Both the position numbers and the translations under genes were made by a program. From Acidobacteriota bacterium (GTDB taxonomy: Bacteria > Acidobacteriota > Terriglobia > Terriglobales > Acidobacteriaceae), in NCBI GenBank assembly GCA_013289795.1, contig JABCZH010000002.1:372001-436000 (forward strand): a stretch of DNA of 64,000 nucleotides. The letters run 5' to 3'. The notes under the pieces were generated by a model. It saw only the letters and a program-made list of their open reading frames with translations. It searched no databases and was not told the DNA's origin. How positions within the stretch are numbered: the stretch's first letter is position 1; each line of letters begins with the position of its first letter. This document shows positions 26,569 through 32,725 of this stretch, one piece after another.

Positions 26569-27975
26569 TTATTGATTGGCCTTCCCGCCTCGCTCGTTTC
26601 TATCGTGGCGCACCTCGCCGGACAGCAGAATCCGCAGCAGCAACAGCCATCTCCGAATGTTGGTCGTCATCAGGAAATTTTCCTTCACATGCTCGCGGCC
26701 ATTCTTTCCGAGCCCGGCGGCAAATTCGGGATGCGTCAGCAGATACCTGATCTGATACGCGCAGCCTTCAACCGAATGCACCAAGGCACCGGTCAGCTTG
26801 TGGATGACCTGGTTGGGAATGCCCCCAACCGCCCCGGCAATGGTCGGCTTCCCTTTCCACAGCGCCTCGGTGACCGTCAGCCCGAAGCCTTCCTTAATCG
26901 ATTTTTGGACGATCAGGGTCGAAGCCCGCTGTAGGGCGTTGATCTCCATTGCGCACCAGGGAGGTAGATCCAAAATAACAATATCGGGATCATTGTCAGC
27001 TACCTCCTTGACCTCCTTCAGGACGGTTGCTCCCTCCGGGTCATCGCTCGCTCCTCCTCCAGCCAACACCAATTGGCAGTCCACGTATTTTCGGGCCAAC
27101 TTGAAGGCTTGGACTACTCCCACCGGATCCTTCAACCGGTCAAAACGCGAGACCTGGGTCACGATGGGGCGGGAGCGATCGATCCCAAATTCGTCGCACA
27201 CCTTCTGAACCACGCTGTCTTCGAGTTCTTTGTTTTTCTCGGATAGTGGGTCGATGCATGGATAAAACAAATATTGCGGGATGGGTAACTGCCGTGCGAA
27301 TGACTGGGAAGAAAAAATCGCGGCGTCGTATTGCTCGATAAAAGGTCTCAGGAACTCCCAGACTTGTGGGTTCGGATTGGACAGATCGATGTGGCAGCGC
27401 CACACCCAGCGAGCAGCCCCATCCTGACGGGCGCGAATGAGCGCGGCCGGCTGGGGGTCGTGGATCACCACCAGGTCCTCGGAAAACCGCATACGCTGAC
27501 GGTTCTGCTCGTTGTACATCAGGAAGATTTCTTCCGCATGCCGGGTCAACTCGTACTCACTGCCGTGCAACGCATTGTGAAACGCTTTGGTGACCTCAAA
27601 GAAGTCATTGCCCCCAGTGATCACGTCCCAGTGGGTTGTCACCTCCAGTTCGTTAAGCAGCGGAACCAGGCGGTTCAGCATTTCCGCAACTCCTCCGCCG
27701 ACTGCGGTGGAGTTGACCATCTTTAACGTCTTGCCCCTGAGTTCGCTGGCCAGAAAACGCAACTCATCGATTTCTGCCACGCCCACGATGTTGCGATAGT
27801 CATCCAGGTGGGGCGATGGAACCGGAGCGGGGGGTGTTTCCCAGGTCCGGGGCAAAGCGCGCGGTTCCGGTTGTGCGGGCGCGCGCCGCGGGGATGCCGA
27901 AGCAACCGAGCTTTCCGGAGCTGGTGACGAACTCGCCACATCTGCCTGGTTCACGGTTTCTGTTGGTTCGGTCAT
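26569..27975 (-). CDS. treT: Trehalose synthase TreT-type glycosyltransferase (GT4)
   Basis: A 468-residue GT-B glycosyltransferase of family GT4, of the TreT/trehalose-phosphorylase type that joins NDP-glucose (or glucose-1-phosphate) and glucose to trehalose. Seen motifs: MVNSTAVGGGVAEMLNRLVP near residue 88, VIHDPQPAALI near 168, VTQVSRFDRLKDPVGVVQAF near 285, and the nucleotide-sugar site KSIKEGFGLTVTEALWKGKP near 375. The first 50 residues are Pro/Ala-rich and poorly conserved. It is the last gene of the trehalose operon, six bases after the DUF5752-like gene. The precise donor and direction cannot be told. Confidence 0.8.
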   Translation of the reverse strand: MTEPTETVNQADVASSSPAPESSVASASPRRAPAQPEPRALPRTWETPPAPVPSPHLDDYRNIVGVAEIDELRFLASELRGKTLKMVNSTAVGGGVAEMLNRLVPLLNELEVTTHWDVITGGNDFFEVTKAFHNALHGSEYELTRHAEEIFLMYNEQNRQRMRFSEDLVVIHDPQPAALIRARQDGAARWVWRCHIDLSNPNPQVWEFLRPFIEQYDAAIFSSQSFARQLPIPQYLFYPCIDPLSEKNKELEDSVVQKVCDEFGIDRSRPIVTQVSRFDRLKDPVGVVQAFKLARKYVDCQLVLAGGGASDDPEGATVLKEVKEVADNDPDIVILDLPPWCAMEINALQRASTLIVQKSIKEGFGLTVTEALWKGKPTIAGAVGGIPNQVIHKLTGALVHSVEGCAYQIRYLLTHPEFAAGLGKNGREHVKENFLMTTNIRRWLLLLRILLSGEVRHDRNERGGKANQ

Positions 27976-27981
27976 GGTCGT

Positions 27982-28659
27982 CTAAGCCAACGCTCGCTCT
28001 ACGATCCTCACCATTTGGGCGCGCACGTTTTCGAGGGTTGCGGTGTAAATGTCAATCCGGTTCAGTTCTCTGGCAGTCTCGGTCAAACCCACATCCTCGT
28101 GCAGCCATTGCGAGAAATCGTTGGACATCAGTTTGAGCCGCAAGCGAGCCTCAATGAAATGATGGTGAATGGAATGCACACTGACCTGGCGCAACCCCTC
28201 GGCAAACTCCTGCATGGTGCTAGCGACAAAGCTGGTTGGCATCACCACAATGTCGGAGGCGCAGAAATAGAAAGTGTCCTCCGCCGGACGCAAACCCGCG
28301 GCCGCATTCTCTTGCAGGAATCCGGCGACGATCTGGACAAATCTCTCCCGCAGTTCGGCCACAGCAGTAAATTCCCTGACGTCCACGCTGGCCAATCTCT
28401 CAGCCAGGCTGGGTTCGTTGCAGGCCGAAAGTGTCCAGTGAGCAAAATCGTTGGAAAAGCCTTCTCGAATAAAGTGATGCTCCTGCAGAGTGCGGAAAGT
28501 ATGTTGGAAGATGGAATCCTTGGGACATTTGCGCAGCGCGTCCAGAAAGTCCGCGAGCGTGCCCGCTTTCTGCGTGGTGATGCGGAGCAGATGGGCTGAA
28601 GTGTTGAAATAGAACGGCTTCGCCGGCGTGCGTTGCGGAGTGAGTGCAGGACTGGTCAT
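27982..28659 (-). CDS. DUF5752-like protein in the trehalose operon
   Basis: A 225-residue cytoplasmic protein of unknown function. It opens FYFNTSAHLLRITTQKAGTLADFL, then KCPKDSIFQHTFRTLQEHHF and NDFAHWT, which from memory match the DUF5752 family found beside retaining glycosyltransferases. No catalytic motif was recognised. Its ATG overlaps the otsB stop by four bases (ATGA), and its stop is six bases before treT, so it is translated as part of the trehalose operon. It may assist or regulate trehalose synthesis. Confidence 0.65.
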   Translation of the reverse strand: MTSPALTPQRTPAKPFYFNTSAHLLRITTQKAGTLADFLDALRKCPKDSIFQHTFRTLQEHHFIREGFSNDFAHWTLSACNEPSLAERLASVDVREFTAVAELRERFVQIVAGFLQENAAAGLRPAEDTFYFCASDIVVMPTSFVASTMQEFAEGLRQVSVHSIHHHFIEARLRLKLMSNDFSQWLHEDVGLTETARELNRIDIYTATLENVRAQMVRIVERALA

Positions 28660-29483
28660 CCGTTCACCGCCGCTACACCCTTGCTGCCGAGCAAGTCGTG
28701 TTTCTCAGATGCACCCAGCCATTGCTCAAGAAACTCTAGTAGTTCACCCGGTGGTTTGATCCATAGCTGCGCGGCTGTGCGTCGCCATTGCGGCCGCACC
28801 AGCACACTTAAGCCGTGACGGTTCACCGCTTGGAAGGCGCGTTCGTCGGTGCTGTCATCTCCCAGATAGGCGACTGGAGTATCGGGCGCCATCTCATTCA
28901 CGATGGCGCGGACGGCATCGCCTTTGTCGGTCGCCGATGCTCTGATTTCGACACCGCCATCGAATTCCAACAAATCCAGGCCGGTGTCCTGGGCTATGTG
29001 CATCCAGCCCAGCAGTATCCGTCCCCGAATCTGGTCGGCCTCCCATTCGTCAAGGTCTCTCCAATGAACCGCGATGCTGCCCGGTTTAAACTCCGCCAAA
29101 TGCCGCAACTGCTGGTACCTCAGCCAATGATCAGCCACTGCGAGGGTCTCCAGAGCAGCCGGGTCCGGTCGCACGATATCGGCTGGGCCGCCCGGTTTCA
29201 TACGCTGAGAGCCGTGAAGTCCCCACACTTCGGGCGGAGGTTGAATTCCGAGAAGGCGAACTGTGTCCTCTGCATCGCGTCCGGAAATGATGACCACGCG
29301 AATGTGAGAGTTCTGGATAATCCTCTGCAAGACGGAAGTGACGCCGGGATAAGGAAATGCTTGATCGCGCTGCTTGCAGAATGGCGCCAAAGTTCCGTCG
29401 TAGTCGAGCAGCAGCAGGGACCGGGATGCGTCCGCGACCGTTCGCAAGAACGGCTCTACTGTGGATTGCGCTTGCGGCTTCAG
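28656..29483 (-). CDS. otsB: Trehalose-6-phosphate phosphatase OtsB, apparent CTG start
   Basis: A HAD-superfamily phosphatase that removes phosphate from trehalose-6-phosphate. Motifs: LLLLDYDGTLAPF (nucleophile Asp), VVIISGRDAEDTVRLLG, GLHGSQRM, and the late AYLGDDSTDERAF. No ATG or GTG exists between the synthase stop and the first motif. A CTG at 29483 lies five bases after GGAGG in a very strong GAGGAGGGAGG site, so I place the start there (275 residues). The open frame extends to 29567 inside the synthase gene, and a TTG nearer the first motif is another option. Confidence 0.85.
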   Translation of the reverse strand: MKPQAQSTVEPFLRTVADASRSLLLLDYDGTLAPFCKQRDQAFPYPGVTSVLQRIIQNSHIRVVIISGRDAEDTVRLLGIQPPPEVWGLHGSQRMKPGGPADIVRPDPAALETLAVADHWLRYQQLRHLAEFKPGSIAVHWRDLDEWEADQIRGRILLGWMHIAQDTGLDLLEFDGGVEIRASATDKGDAVRAIVNEMAPDTPVAYLGDDSTDERAFQAVNRHGLSVLVRPQWRRTAAQLWIKPPGELLEFLEQWLGASEKHDLLGSKGVAAVNG

Positions 29484-29511
29484 TGTTTCCTCCCTCCTCT
29501 GCGGTTTGGAA

Positions 29512-31806
29512 TCATGCGAACGAAACGCTCGCCCGCAGTTTTTCCTGAGTGTCTTCCGGCGCGTCAAGCCGGACCTCGCAGAGTTCAGTGATCAAGTTTC
29601 CTGCCCAGCGATAGATGTTGTGTTCCTTGATGACCCTGCGCATGCGCTGCATGCGCAGTTGTTTGTCTTCCGGCTCCATTTCCAGGGCCTGGCGGATGGC
29701 GTCGGCGGTCTGATCGATGTCGTATGGGTTGACCAACAGGGCATCGCGCAGTTCACGAGCGGCTCCCGTGAACTGGCTCAGAATCAGCACTCCGCGTTCG
29801 TCATGGCGGGCGGCCAAAAATTCCTTCGATACCAGATTCATGCCGTCGTGCAGCGAGGTAACGAGACAGAGATCGGCGGCGCGATAGTAAGGCGCGATCT
29901 CGGCGTGGCTGTGCTGCCGCTTTAGAAATACGATCGGCTTCCACCTGCTTGTCTGAAAGCGCCAGTTGATGCGCTCCGCCTCTGCCTCCACTTCTGCCAG
30001 CAGGTCGTGGTATCGCTTGATATGAGTGCGACTGGGCGCGCCAACCTGTACGAAAGTGAACTTGCCTTGATAGTTGGAACACTTCTCCAGAAAGCGCTCC
30101 ACCGCCAGAAAGCGTTCGAGAATCCCCTTGGTGTAGTCCACCCGGTCAACTCCAATCCCTAGGAAGGTCGCTTCAACTCCCAAGCCCCGGAGGAGCGCCG
30201 AGCGTTCCAGGTAGTTGAGCCCCTGGTTGGCACTTTCGGCGGAGTCATCTTCCGGAGTCAGGTCGACGCTGATGGGGAAAGGACGGACGGCGGTGCGGTG
30301 GTCCTGCCGCAGAACGGAGAAGTGTTCCCAGTCCACCCGTGACTCGACAATCCGGTCCACGGTTTGCAGGAAGTTGTTGCAATGCGACTGGATGTGAAAT
30401 CCAATGAGATCGGCGCCCAGCAATCCATCCACTAATTGCCGCTGCCATGGGCAGATGCCGAAGGCTTCCGGATTGGGCCAGGGGATGTGCCAGAAGATCG
30501 CTACCCGGGCATCCGGCCGCTTTTCCTTGATGAGCCGTGGCAGCAACGCAAAGTGATAGTCCTGGGTCAGAATCACCGGGTTGGGGACGTCTTCGATTTC
30601 TTCGAGCACGGCCTCGGTGAACTTTTGGTTTACCTCCTGGTAATGCCGCCAGTCGGCGGCGCGGAAAATCGGACGGGTGTGAGCAATGTGGCAAAGCGGC
30701 CACAACCCTTCGTTGGCAAAACCGTAATAGTAACCTTCCTCCTGTGCTTTGCTCAGCCATACCCGCCGCAGGCTGTAGCGAGGATCATCGACCGGAACGC
30801 GCAGGCGATCTCTTGAATCCACGACTTCCACATCGGCGTCTCCGCTGCCGTGAGCGATCCAGGTACCATCACAAGCGTTGAGCACCGGCTCCAGGGCCGT
30901 CACCAGGCCGCTGGGCGGGACCACAACGTCGATCGCCTTCCCGTTGCGCTGATGTATGTAGGGCTCGCGATTCGACACCACAAAAAGGCGGCTTCCCTCC
31001 AGACGGGTGTGTACTTGTACTGAGAGCCGGTCCGCCGTCCACATCGATTCCGAAGCTTCCCGCAACCGGGCTTCATTCTCGGCTGCACTGCGTGCCTGGT
31101 TGAGGCTTTCCGCCAGAGTGGCTACTTCGCGTGCCAGGGGCCGGAAGAGATCGAGATCGGGGATCCCCTGGCGTGAGGAGACTTTCCCAGTACGCAACGC
31201 GCGCATCCATTGCGCAGCGCGGGCGATCGGGCCAGTAATGCTCCACCGGACGATGACTAACGTGATCAGCACTATCAGGAAAACTTCAGCTAGAACCCGC
31301 AGGAACGCTTCACGCCAGGTCCGCAGCGTCTGTTGACGTATGTAGCCCGCCTCATGCAGCACCGCGAGGCCGCCCACCAACTCGCCCTGCCGCTCGAGAG
31401 GTAAGGCCAGGATATGCACCCGCTGGCCAGCCAAATTGTCGAAGGAACTCTGCTGGTGGCCCTCGGAGATCGCTCTGGACACCGTTTGCGGGCCGCTGGT
31501 GAGCAACTTCTCTAACCCCGGAGTCATAGCCACCAGACTGCCGTGGCGGTCGTAGACGGCAACTCCCAACAAATGCTCGCGGTTGCCAAAGCGTTGTACC
31601 AGGCGTTGCAGTTCGGCTTCCGAGCCCGAGCCCCACGATCGCTCGACATTGCCGGCGAGGCTCTCCCCCAGCACCTCGGCGCGGTGTTCCAGGTCACTGC
31701 GCAGATTTCGCTTTTCCCCCACCACCCCCGAATATGAGAACAGCAGAGACACCAAGGTGCTACCGAGAATCAGGGAAACGATGAGCCGAACACTCAGCAG
31801 TCGCAT
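29512..31806 (-). CDS. otsA: Membrane sensor-HAMP-trehalose-6-phosphate synthase fusion
   Basis: A 764-residue fusion. The ATG at 31806 (GGAG eight bases upstream) begins a membrane segment (about 5-25). A periplasmic sensor-like region (about 30-160) with [14 protein letters not shown] follows, then a second membrane segment (about 167-188), a HAMP linker starting [17 protein letters not shown], and a short coiled coil. From about residue 274 the chain is GT20 trehalose-6-phosphate synthase, which makes trehalose-6-phosphate from UDP-glucose and glucose-6-phosphate. Conserved sites are [39 protein letters not shown] and [11 protein letters not shown], so it should be active. It is the first gene of the trehalose operon. 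Glucosylglycerol-phosphate synthase, a GT20 relative, is the main alternative. Confidence 0.9.
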
Positions 31807-31920: not shown

Positions 31921-32286
31921 TCAGGCTGGGTCGATGGCACTCACGCGAATTGTGCCGCTGGAGGCATCAAGAACGCCAGTGACTTTCACGTTCTGATTCA
32001 TGAACTGTTTCGCCTTCTTCTGGTCGTCGAGTTGATAGCTGGTCTTGCCGTCCGCATCAGTCAGAACTAGCTTGCTTCCCGACTTCACGATTTTTCCCGT
32101 AAAGGTTGCGGTCTGCGCTGCCTGATTCTGATCGGCGGGTTGCGGCATGGATTGCTGTTGAGCATTGGGATCTGAATTCGGGCTGGCCGCGTTCTGCGCC
32201 ATTGAAGATTGGCTCATAAGACACAGGCCCACAATCAACGCCGCTACCGGCAACACGTGGAGCATCAGTTCTTGCATTCTCTTCAT
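31921..32286 (-). CDS. Small secreted DUF5818-like protein
   Basis: A 121-residue protein. The ATG at 32286 has AAGGAGA six bases upstream and opens a signal peptide (about 1-30). A Gln/Pro/Asn-rich linker precedes a compact domain: ATFTGKIVKSGSKLVLTD, then KKAKQFMNQNVKVTGVLD and TIRVSAI, which looks like a small OB-like β-barrel and from memory matches DUF5818, common in Acidobacteria. Function unknown. It precedes the trehalose operon on the same strand, with 114 bases between. Confidence 0.65.
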   Translation of the reverse strand: MKRMQELMLHVLPVAALIVGLCLMSQSSMAQNAASPNSDPNAQQQSMPQPADQNQAAQTATFTGKIVKSGSKLVLTDADGKTSYQLDDQKKAKQFMNQNVKVTGVLDASSGTIRVSAIDPA

Positions 32287-32725
32287 TGCAGTCTCCTTGG
32301 GGAGGGATTTGTACGTATAGCCTGTGAGGAGCAACTGCCCTGCCAAAGTGGTGCATTGAGACTCAAGTGGTTGAAAGACCGTTGGTTCTTCGCGGTCCAC
32401 CAACCTCGCCACAGTGCAAGGATGACCGGTGGGGTGGGAAATAGTTCCTTACAGGTCTCTCTTGTAGCACGACCGCAGCAGAGCTGGAGTTGACAACCTG
32501 GAGGCCTAATCAGTTTCGCTTAAGGCGGGCACGTTATAATTCAAGGCTTGGCGGTAAATCCGCTGCATTTCTGGCGGTTCCGGTCGTTCCAACCACGGGG
32601 AACTTTTGGGCGGGGATAGTCGTATCTGAAGGTGTGCACCCCGACGTCCCCAACGGGCCGGGATCAGCCAGGTTCAGGAGTCGACGCCGCGGCAGGCGCG
32701 GCTCAGGGACGCATGTGGGGAGGCA
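32287..32725. other. Divergent intergenic region before the efflux adaptor gene
   Basis: About 440 bases without a supported gene. TATAAT occurs at 32535-32540 and TTGACA at 32490-32495, but they are too far apart to form one promoter. The adaptor's own ribosome site is GGGGAGG just before 32726. Frames crossing this region on the minus strand are antisense to the adaptor gene. Confidence 0.4.

Follow-up and report, generated by a model that had tools for sequence, protein, structure and literature searches.

Results

Organization of the locus

The window, that is, the whole stretch of 64,000 nucleotides of Acidobacteriota DNA that was analyzed, carries on its minus strand a gene of one open frame (29512..31806) whose 764-amino-acid product joins a membrane module of receptor type to a trehalose-6-phosphate synthase domain of family GT20. 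The initial annotation had given the correct coordinates without stating the strand. The 764-codon frame reads from an ATG at 31806 down to 29512, with the stop codon at 29512-29514; the first methionine is common to 96 of 98 aligned rows (an alignment that includes the window's own gene twice), and a Shine-Dalgarno-like GGAG lies eight bases 5' of the ATG. From its N-terminus, the protein comprises a single-Cache domain set between two membrane helices, then a HAMP-like module and a helical linker that leads to the GT20 domain. Upstream of the gene, at 31921-32412, lies a gene for a small DUF5818 protein, which also adjoins the fusion gene in close relatives (loci L033, L035 and L103).

The fusion gene heads a same-strand, operon-like packed set in the order synthase, OtsB, DUF5752 and TreT. 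The otsB-like trehalose-6-phosphate phosphatase gene is an open frame at 28656..29567 (minus strand) when provisionally read from a TTG; a CTG at 29483 follows a GGAGG and may be the start instead. The part from 28656 to 29483 matches Pfam family PF02358 at 81.8 bits (cut-off 27) and TIGR00685 at 90.4 bits (cut-off 68.05). Overlapping otsB by four bases (ATGA) is the gene for a DUF5752 protein of 225 amino acids (27982..28659, minus strand; PF19027, E 2e-59), and six bases beyond it lies that for a TreT-type GT4 trehalose synthase of 468 amino acids (26569..27975, minus strand). The latter matches PF21269 (TreT_GT1) and the PDB entries 6zj4 (411.8 bits) and 2x6q (348.5 bits), and scores 376.5 bits with the TreT_Thcocales equivalog model, below the cut-off of 775. 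No MscS gene was seen beside the synthase, OtsB or TreT in the window's own cassette. The genome to which the window belongs is 99.9% complete and has a single GT20 gene; searching it with the Pfam Trehalase (GH37) model gave no match, and the TreY and TreS models gave matches below cut-off only.

The membrane helices and the Cache domain

The two membrane segments proposed in the initial annotation are found at approximately residues 3-21 (31744..31800, minus strand; Kyte-Doolittle scan, within a helix spanning residues 2-57 in the model) and residues 168-186 (31249..31305, minus strand; hydrophobicity scan and model). Between them, at approximately residues 30-161 (31324..31719, minus strand), is an extracytoplasmic single-Cache (PAS-like) domain, which gives substance to the periplasmic domain of that annotation and is supported by a structural model, by matches to WalK and by family-level profile matches. 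The AlphaFold2 model of residues 2-282 (mean pLDDT 85.6) runs from a long helix through an alpha/beta Cache fold to a second long helix, which spans the membrane, continues as the first HAMP helix and is followed by a connector and the second HAMP helix.

A kinase-type sensor at the N-terminus was first hinted at by the NCBIfam WalK model, which matches residues 13-247 (E 4.6e-8) at 32.1 bits, far under its cut-off of 725. The best Foldseek match to the N-terminal model is full-length WalK (9a5d, itself an integrative model; TM 0.70, E 5.3e-12), aligned over the whole length, and VIA-align superimposes the two with Z 16.0 and rmsd 5.8 over 273 residues. The same program aligns the WalK crystal structures 5is1 (Z 15.3, rmsd 2.5, 127 residues) and 4ywz (Z 15.3, rmsd 2.3, 134 residues), and the family profile retrieves the WalK extracellular domain 5is1 from the PDB with E 4e-4. 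Structures of CitA, DctB and sporulation kinase D are matched by the Cache model as well.

Ninety N-terminal regions were aligned, and the members were also scanned singly against Pfam at E 0.01. This gave sCache_3_2 in 21 members, SMP_2 in 19, dCache_3 and CHASE8 in five each, dCache_1 in four, HAMP in three and Cache_WalK in one; the window protein itself does not reach sCache_3_2 at this threshold. A dCache or CHASE identity, which the initial annotation had considered alongside HAMP, was rejected because sCache_3_2 is far more frequent and the model contains one Cache unit; a single Cache is therefore preferred. Within the protein, conservation is lowest in the Cache part (mean identity 38%, against 68% for GT20). 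Few of its positions reach 85% identity, and no conserved ligand pocket or ligand motif was recognized in it.

The HAMP-like module and the linker

HAMP domains are recognized by two amphipathic heptad helices, a proline in the first, a glutamate at the start of the second and a position directly after a membrane helix. All of these features are present in the fusion family at residues 187-240 (31087..31248, minus strand), a divergent HAMP-like module identified by conservation, heptads and hhalign. Pro193 occurs in 96 of 98 rows and Glu227 in all 98; the hydrophobic heptad columns are I190-I194-A198-M201-L204 in helix 1 and L224-V228-L231-L235-A238-A242 in helix 2. When compared by hhalign with 11 HAMPs of the same genome, the family profile scores E 8.8e-5, with a probability of 59.8%. 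The HAMP linker of the initial annotation is thus found at the level of the family, and the outcome that would have refuted it, a profile search without any HAMP-like module, did not occur. In the single sequence, Pfam HAMP (PF00672) aligned to residues 186-240 gives 16.9 bits, under the cut-off of 25. As the score is too low but the hallmarks are present, we file the module as HAMP-like, which the family-level sequence evidence indicates it is, and not as a Pfam HAMP.

Spacings within this region are close to constant over the 98 rows: I156 and P193 are 37 residues apart in 96, P193 and R205 12 apart in 97, E227 and W256 29 apart in 94, and L261 and N279 18 apart in all 98. The segments whose length does vary are one GT20 loop and the HAMP connector, the latter from 20 to 32. 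Near-fixed helix lengths are what a signal-carrying rod would need; plain helices, even mere tethers, would also resist insertions. The helical linker that leads into the enzyme (residues 241-272; 30991..31086, minus strand) was defined by conservation and fixed spacing, and its residues Trp256 and Leu261 are present in 98 of the 98 fusion rows. These two residues were entertained as a coupling motif and dropped, since soluble relatives share them in part: among three such proteins read directly, two have W256 and all three have L261. They are consequently no evidence of coupling, and the stretch belongs to the enzyme side. About 20 match rows in a draw of genomes from the phylum (described below) begin between residues 231 and 256. 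The run at about 238-249, ahead of W256, was seen in fusions only.

The GT20 domain

Residues 273-742 (29581..30990, minus strand) form the GT20 domain, matched by Pfam PF00982 with E 3.8e-120 and 402.3 bits (cut-off 32.5) over positions 2-471 of the 473 in the profile. R280, G300, Y360, W369, D416, H440, R555, K560, R593, D654 and E662 do not vary among the 64 fusions sampled and are also found in E. coli OtsA. All of them except W369 correspond, through alignment with 5jij, to donor or acceptor contacts described for MtrOtsA in the accessible part of the report on that enzyme (PMC6879718). The complete synthase with intact active-site motifs that had been annotated from the sequence is thereby borne out, and the catalytic competence of the fusion protein is well supported by these conserved residues. 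The OtsA equivalog model TIGR02400 gives 427.8 bits, under its cut-off of 564.85, so we call the protein a GT20 enzyme with a probable OtsA-like function and not OtsA itself; the glucosylglycerol-phosphate model gives 305.3 bits. Taken together, we regard it as very probable, on sequence grounds, that the domain is an active trehalose-6-phosphate synthase.

Distribution of the fusion

Of 61 genomes (that of the window and 60 relatives), 40 contain a match to at least part of the protein. From a second scan, with one genome per species, the best 80 of at least 580 relatives were kept; their record titles name Acidobacteria, Elusimicrobia, Nitrospirae, Omnitrophota, Methylomirabilota, Rokubacteria, Edwardsbacteria, Patescibacteria and others, phylum labels that depend on binning because most of the loci come from metagenome bins. 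Edaphobacter aggregans DSM 19364 is a named isolate among these best 80 of at least 580. The homologues with the same fusion that the initial annotation had proposed to collect are thus at hand: the full-length fusion (from residue 15 or before to residue 735 or beyond, in one frame) is present in 97 of the 110 loci from both searches, the window's own included, a sample in which full-length matches are favored since 80 of the loci are the best-scoring of at least 580. The Cache-TM-HAMP order is maintained at 50% identity and below.

In a separate draw of 392 genomes from the phylum, 126 had a match at E 1e-30, and 38 full-length fusions were counted in 34 genomes, again including the window's own. 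Besides these, the draw contained one partial fusion (genome G255) and one in which the gene for a full-length fusion is broken into two frames (G131:C19:14598-16660), owing either to a genuine frameshift or to an error in sequencing. That two genes were joined by misassembly, which the initial annotation had named as a refuting outcome, or by chance is ruled out by the recurrence of the same joined frame in 97 of 110 loci and by the 38 full-length rows among the 392 genomes.

Phylogeny of the GT20 domain and sister exchanger fusions

A tree was built from 105 hand-chosen GT20 domains, namely 64 from Cache-HAMP fusions, 10 from exchanger fusions, 12 from TPS-TPP fusions (every second TPS-TPP row was left out, as were five near-duplicate rows) and 19 others; it was obtained with a "quick" method with no bootstrap and has long branches. 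The 64 Cache-HAMP fusions cluster together (SH-aLRT 94), along with a single soluble gene on a long branch, and five further soluble genes join them in a group of 70 (SH-aLRT 97). The sister of this group (SH-aLRT 100) consists of the ten GT20 domains joined to exchangers and of L154, a soluble long-branch gene without membrane segments by hydrophobicity scan. The group holding both the Cache-HAMP and the exchanger fusions sits on a long branch (0.68).

The ten exchanger fusions, in which GT20 follows a cation/proton exchanger of the Na+/H+-exchanger or CPA2-like type, were retrieved for their long frames and do not represent a census. PF00999 scores above cut-off in eight of them (L144-L148, L150, L152 and L153); L142 and L143 match the CPA2 model TIGR00932 at 50-52 bits, under its cut-off of 238.3, and L142 has no Pfam exchanger match at E 0.01. 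In each of the ten, at least ten hydrophobic segments precede GT20, and the last exchanger helix leads through a short linker to the first GT20 strand. The existence of both kinds of fusion implies that membrane modules of at least two different types have become joined to this GT20 lineage. The stretch that we take to be the ion site of the exchanger fusions is not invariant, so that some of them may be sensors and not transporters.

The trehalose cassette in other genomes

Sixty-three of the best 80 loci have at least 3.5 kb of downstream sequence, and in these the cassette genes were counted anywhere in the locus. OtsB is present in 42, TreT in 36, DUF5752 in 35 and all three in 26; none of the three was found in 12 of the 63. 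When the neighbors in 100 fusion loci were clustered, the larger extra clusters among the top 28 appear, from where they lie and how they are oriented, to be frames that overlap cassette genes or run antisense to them, and each remaining cluster among those listed occurs in about 10 loci or fewer. Antisense frames are also chained into the OtsB cluster, whose size was therefore left out of account.

The DUF5752 protein was modelled with a pLDDT of 90.4. Foldseek matches the model to T. tenax OrfY (4cso) with E 1.1e-16, and structural alignment to 4cso gives Z 23.1 and rmsd 2.3 over 212 residues at 28% identity, the next chain having Z 3.3; the notion that DUF5752 is of unknown fold is ruled out by this OrfY-like match. 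Our literature search returned no paper on DUF5752 and none combining OrfY with Thermoproteus tenax. In five loci, an MscS-type membrane part and beta-domain are fused ahead of DUF5752 (L056:9042-10439, L057:3266-4651, L064:3258-4640, L085:9015-10424 and L093:8762-10153); the usual C-terminal domain of MscS does not appear among the matches listed for the five. These fusions offer a hint to the function of DUF5752 and OrfY. In all, phmmer searches with five queries found MscS-like genes in at least 8 of the 80 fusion loci L032-L111, a weak match in L094 (21-24 bits) being left out of the count; five of them are the DUF5752 fusions. Separate MscS genes are seen in L051, L065, L074, L122 and L123, either directly next to a cassette or synthase gene or at up to about 4 kb from the closest one; those in L122 and L123 adjoin TPS-TPP fusions. 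A TreT-type GT4 gene adjoins 7 of 22 TPS-TPP fusion genes without a receptor module (L112-L114, L116, L125, L126 and L134).

Discussion

The architecture of the protein, its conservation, the intact active site and the surrounding cassette are the evidence for a receptor-enzyme. A receptor-enzyme that couples the state of the envelope to trehalose-6-phosphate synthesis is, in our judgment, the best explanation of the fusion, with somewhat better than even prospects of being right. That the activity of the GT20 domain is controlled by the N-terminal module appears likely from the conserved sequence features, and the stimulus might plausibly be osmotic or related to turgor, although here we would put the chances slightly below even. 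Dimeric HAMP signalling, control of activity and a stimulus of osmotic or envelope stress are what we infer from these data. The initial annotation had proposed such a switch, with osmotic or desiccation stress as an example of the signal, and its interpretation is supported in part. The MscS-DUF5752 fusions and the exchanger fusions of the sister group also speak for the receptor-enzyme. Speaking against it are the HAMP score below the Pfam cut-off, the partial sharing of the conserved linker residues with soluble relatives, the low conservation of the Cache part, the 12 of 63 well-flanked loci without a cassette gene and the soluble long-branch gene L154 among the fusions of the tree. In such a mechanism, the Cache domain and/or the membrane helices would sense the envelope state, and the change would travel through the second membrane helix, the HAMP-like four-helix module and the fixed-length helical linker to enter the first strand and the mobile loop of GT20. 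The linker continues directly into the strand ending in R280 and thence to the mobile loop, which suggests a route by which the receptor could gate catalysis. When OtsA closes, its helix 1 and Arg35-Gly39 loop are displaced by as much as about 12 Angstrom, according to the accessible text (PMC6879718). The GT20 domain could shift between less and more active (open and closed) states, so that trehalose-6-phosphate would be made on envelope demand. OtsB would then remove the phosphate, and TreT, DUF5752 and, in some lineages, the MscS channel would belong to the same trehalose and turgor module.

One could instead envision that the N-terminal part has lost its sensing role and merely anchors an always-active synthase at the membrane, near OtsB, TreT or an exporter. 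The low conservation of the Cache part relative to GT20 (38% versus 68%), the divergence of the HAMP module and the presence of soluble relatives close to the fusions in the tree of GT20 domains would all fit such a constitutive tether. However, an anchor needs neither an invariant Glu227, nor Pro193, heptads or constant helix lengths, and the Cache-TM-HAMP order persists at 50% identity and below; we consider a tether unlikely, if a serious competitor. Somewhat less probable still is a complex of the kind described in T. tenax, in which binding of the TreT or other GT4 protein would activate the synthase and the membrane part would simply place the complex beside an MscS channel. In that archaeon, as far as the accessible part of the paper goes, the GT4 protein activates TPSP and the operon includes an MSC gene (PMC3634074); here, a TreT-type GT4 and, in some loci, an MscS-DUF5752 fusion lie within the cassette, and TreT is found beside 7 of the 22 TPS-TPP fusion genes as well. 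Yet the same source places the T. tenax GT closest to PimA and not to TreT (PMC3634074), 27 of the 63 well-flanked loci have no TreT, and the Cache and HAMP modules would be left unexplained. Finally, a product other than trehalose-6-phosphate, such as a phosphosugar glycoside of the glucosylglycerol-phosphate type, might be read from the missed OtsA equivalog cut-off (427.8 versus 564.85 bits) and from the long branch (0.68) of the fusion and exchanger group, but is quite improbable given that the OtsA model outscores the glucosylglycerol-phosphate model (427.8 versus 305.3 bits), that the acceptor-site residues R280, Y360, D416 and R593 are invariant, and that OtsB and TreT adjoin the synthase.

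The receptor-enzyme that we favor combines properties of systems that are known separately. With the OtsA proteins of E. coli and M. thermoresistibile it shares the GT20 family and all the donor and acceptor residues tested, although it scores below the OtsA equivalog cut-off. The figure of about 450-500 residues that the initial annotation gave for an ordinary OtsA agrees with the E. coli protein, which has 474 amino acids and starts at the GT20 strand; we know of no OtsA with a membrane receptor. With sensor histidine kinases of the WalK/YycG type the fusion shares the order of membrane helix, extracytoplasmic Cache/PAS domain, membrane helix and HAMP, as well as the structural match, but its output is a glycosyltransferase and not a kinase. 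The gene orfY, we presume, adjoins treT in T. tenax. The OrfY protein (PDB 4cso) has the same fold as the DUF5752 protein of the cassette, at 28% identity. The msc-gt-tpsp operon of T. tenax, as described in the accessible portion of its report, unites a GT20 synthase and a phosphatase with a GT4 protein and with a mechanosensitive channel, but its synthase is a TPS-TPP fusion and its GT4 is closest to PimA; the authors saw no comparable operon in bacteria (PMC3634074). Judging from gene content, the bacterial cassettes described here appear comparable to that operon, but their GT4 is TreT-like and the window's own cassette is without MscS. The GT4-type synthase of Sulfolobus represents a different solution, as far as can be told from the available text of Stracke et al. 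2020 (PMC7688234).

The nearest published idea seems to be that of OtsA as an osmotic stress sensor in Arthrobacter (PMC5685639). There, too, a trehalose-6-phosphate synthase is linked to osmotic sensing, but it works through self-assembly and the level of trehalose-6-phosphate, and the accessible part of the paper mentions no receptor domain (PMC5685639). Our literature search, conducted mostly outside subscription journals, found no description of a receptor-GT20 fusion, and the word "transmembrane" is absent from the available text of a 2024 review of alpha-glucan enzymes (PMC11046441).

How bacteria sense osmotic conditions and set their production of compatible solutes is a long-standing question. 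The known outputs of HAMP receptors are kinases, cyclases, cyclic-di-GMP enzymes and chemotaxis. If a committed step in the making of an osmoprotectant were such an output too, this would provide a direct route from the state of the envelope to a metabolite, and the presence of sensor and enzyme in a single protein makes the osmotic question testable in vitro. The soluble relatives offer natural controls and the exchanger-fused cousins a second natural experiment. Together with the cassette and the MscS link, the sister exchanger fusions go beyond what the initial annotation had read from the gene. It is tempting to propose, at chances somewhat below even, that these observations belong to a widespread bacterial membrane turgor module in which Cache-HAMP receptors, CPA2-like exchangers and MscS channels are fused to trehalose-making proteins. 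Envelope tension or ion balance would then set compatible-solute synthesis directly, without a kinase, a second messenger or transcription, and HAMP receptors would gain a class of metabolic-enzyme outputs.

Longer variants of the architecture occur in two loci (L149:4729-8262 and L151:3362-6343), where the Cache-HAMP-GT20 protein is preceded by an extra N-terminal stretch of about 250-430 residues without a Pfam match.
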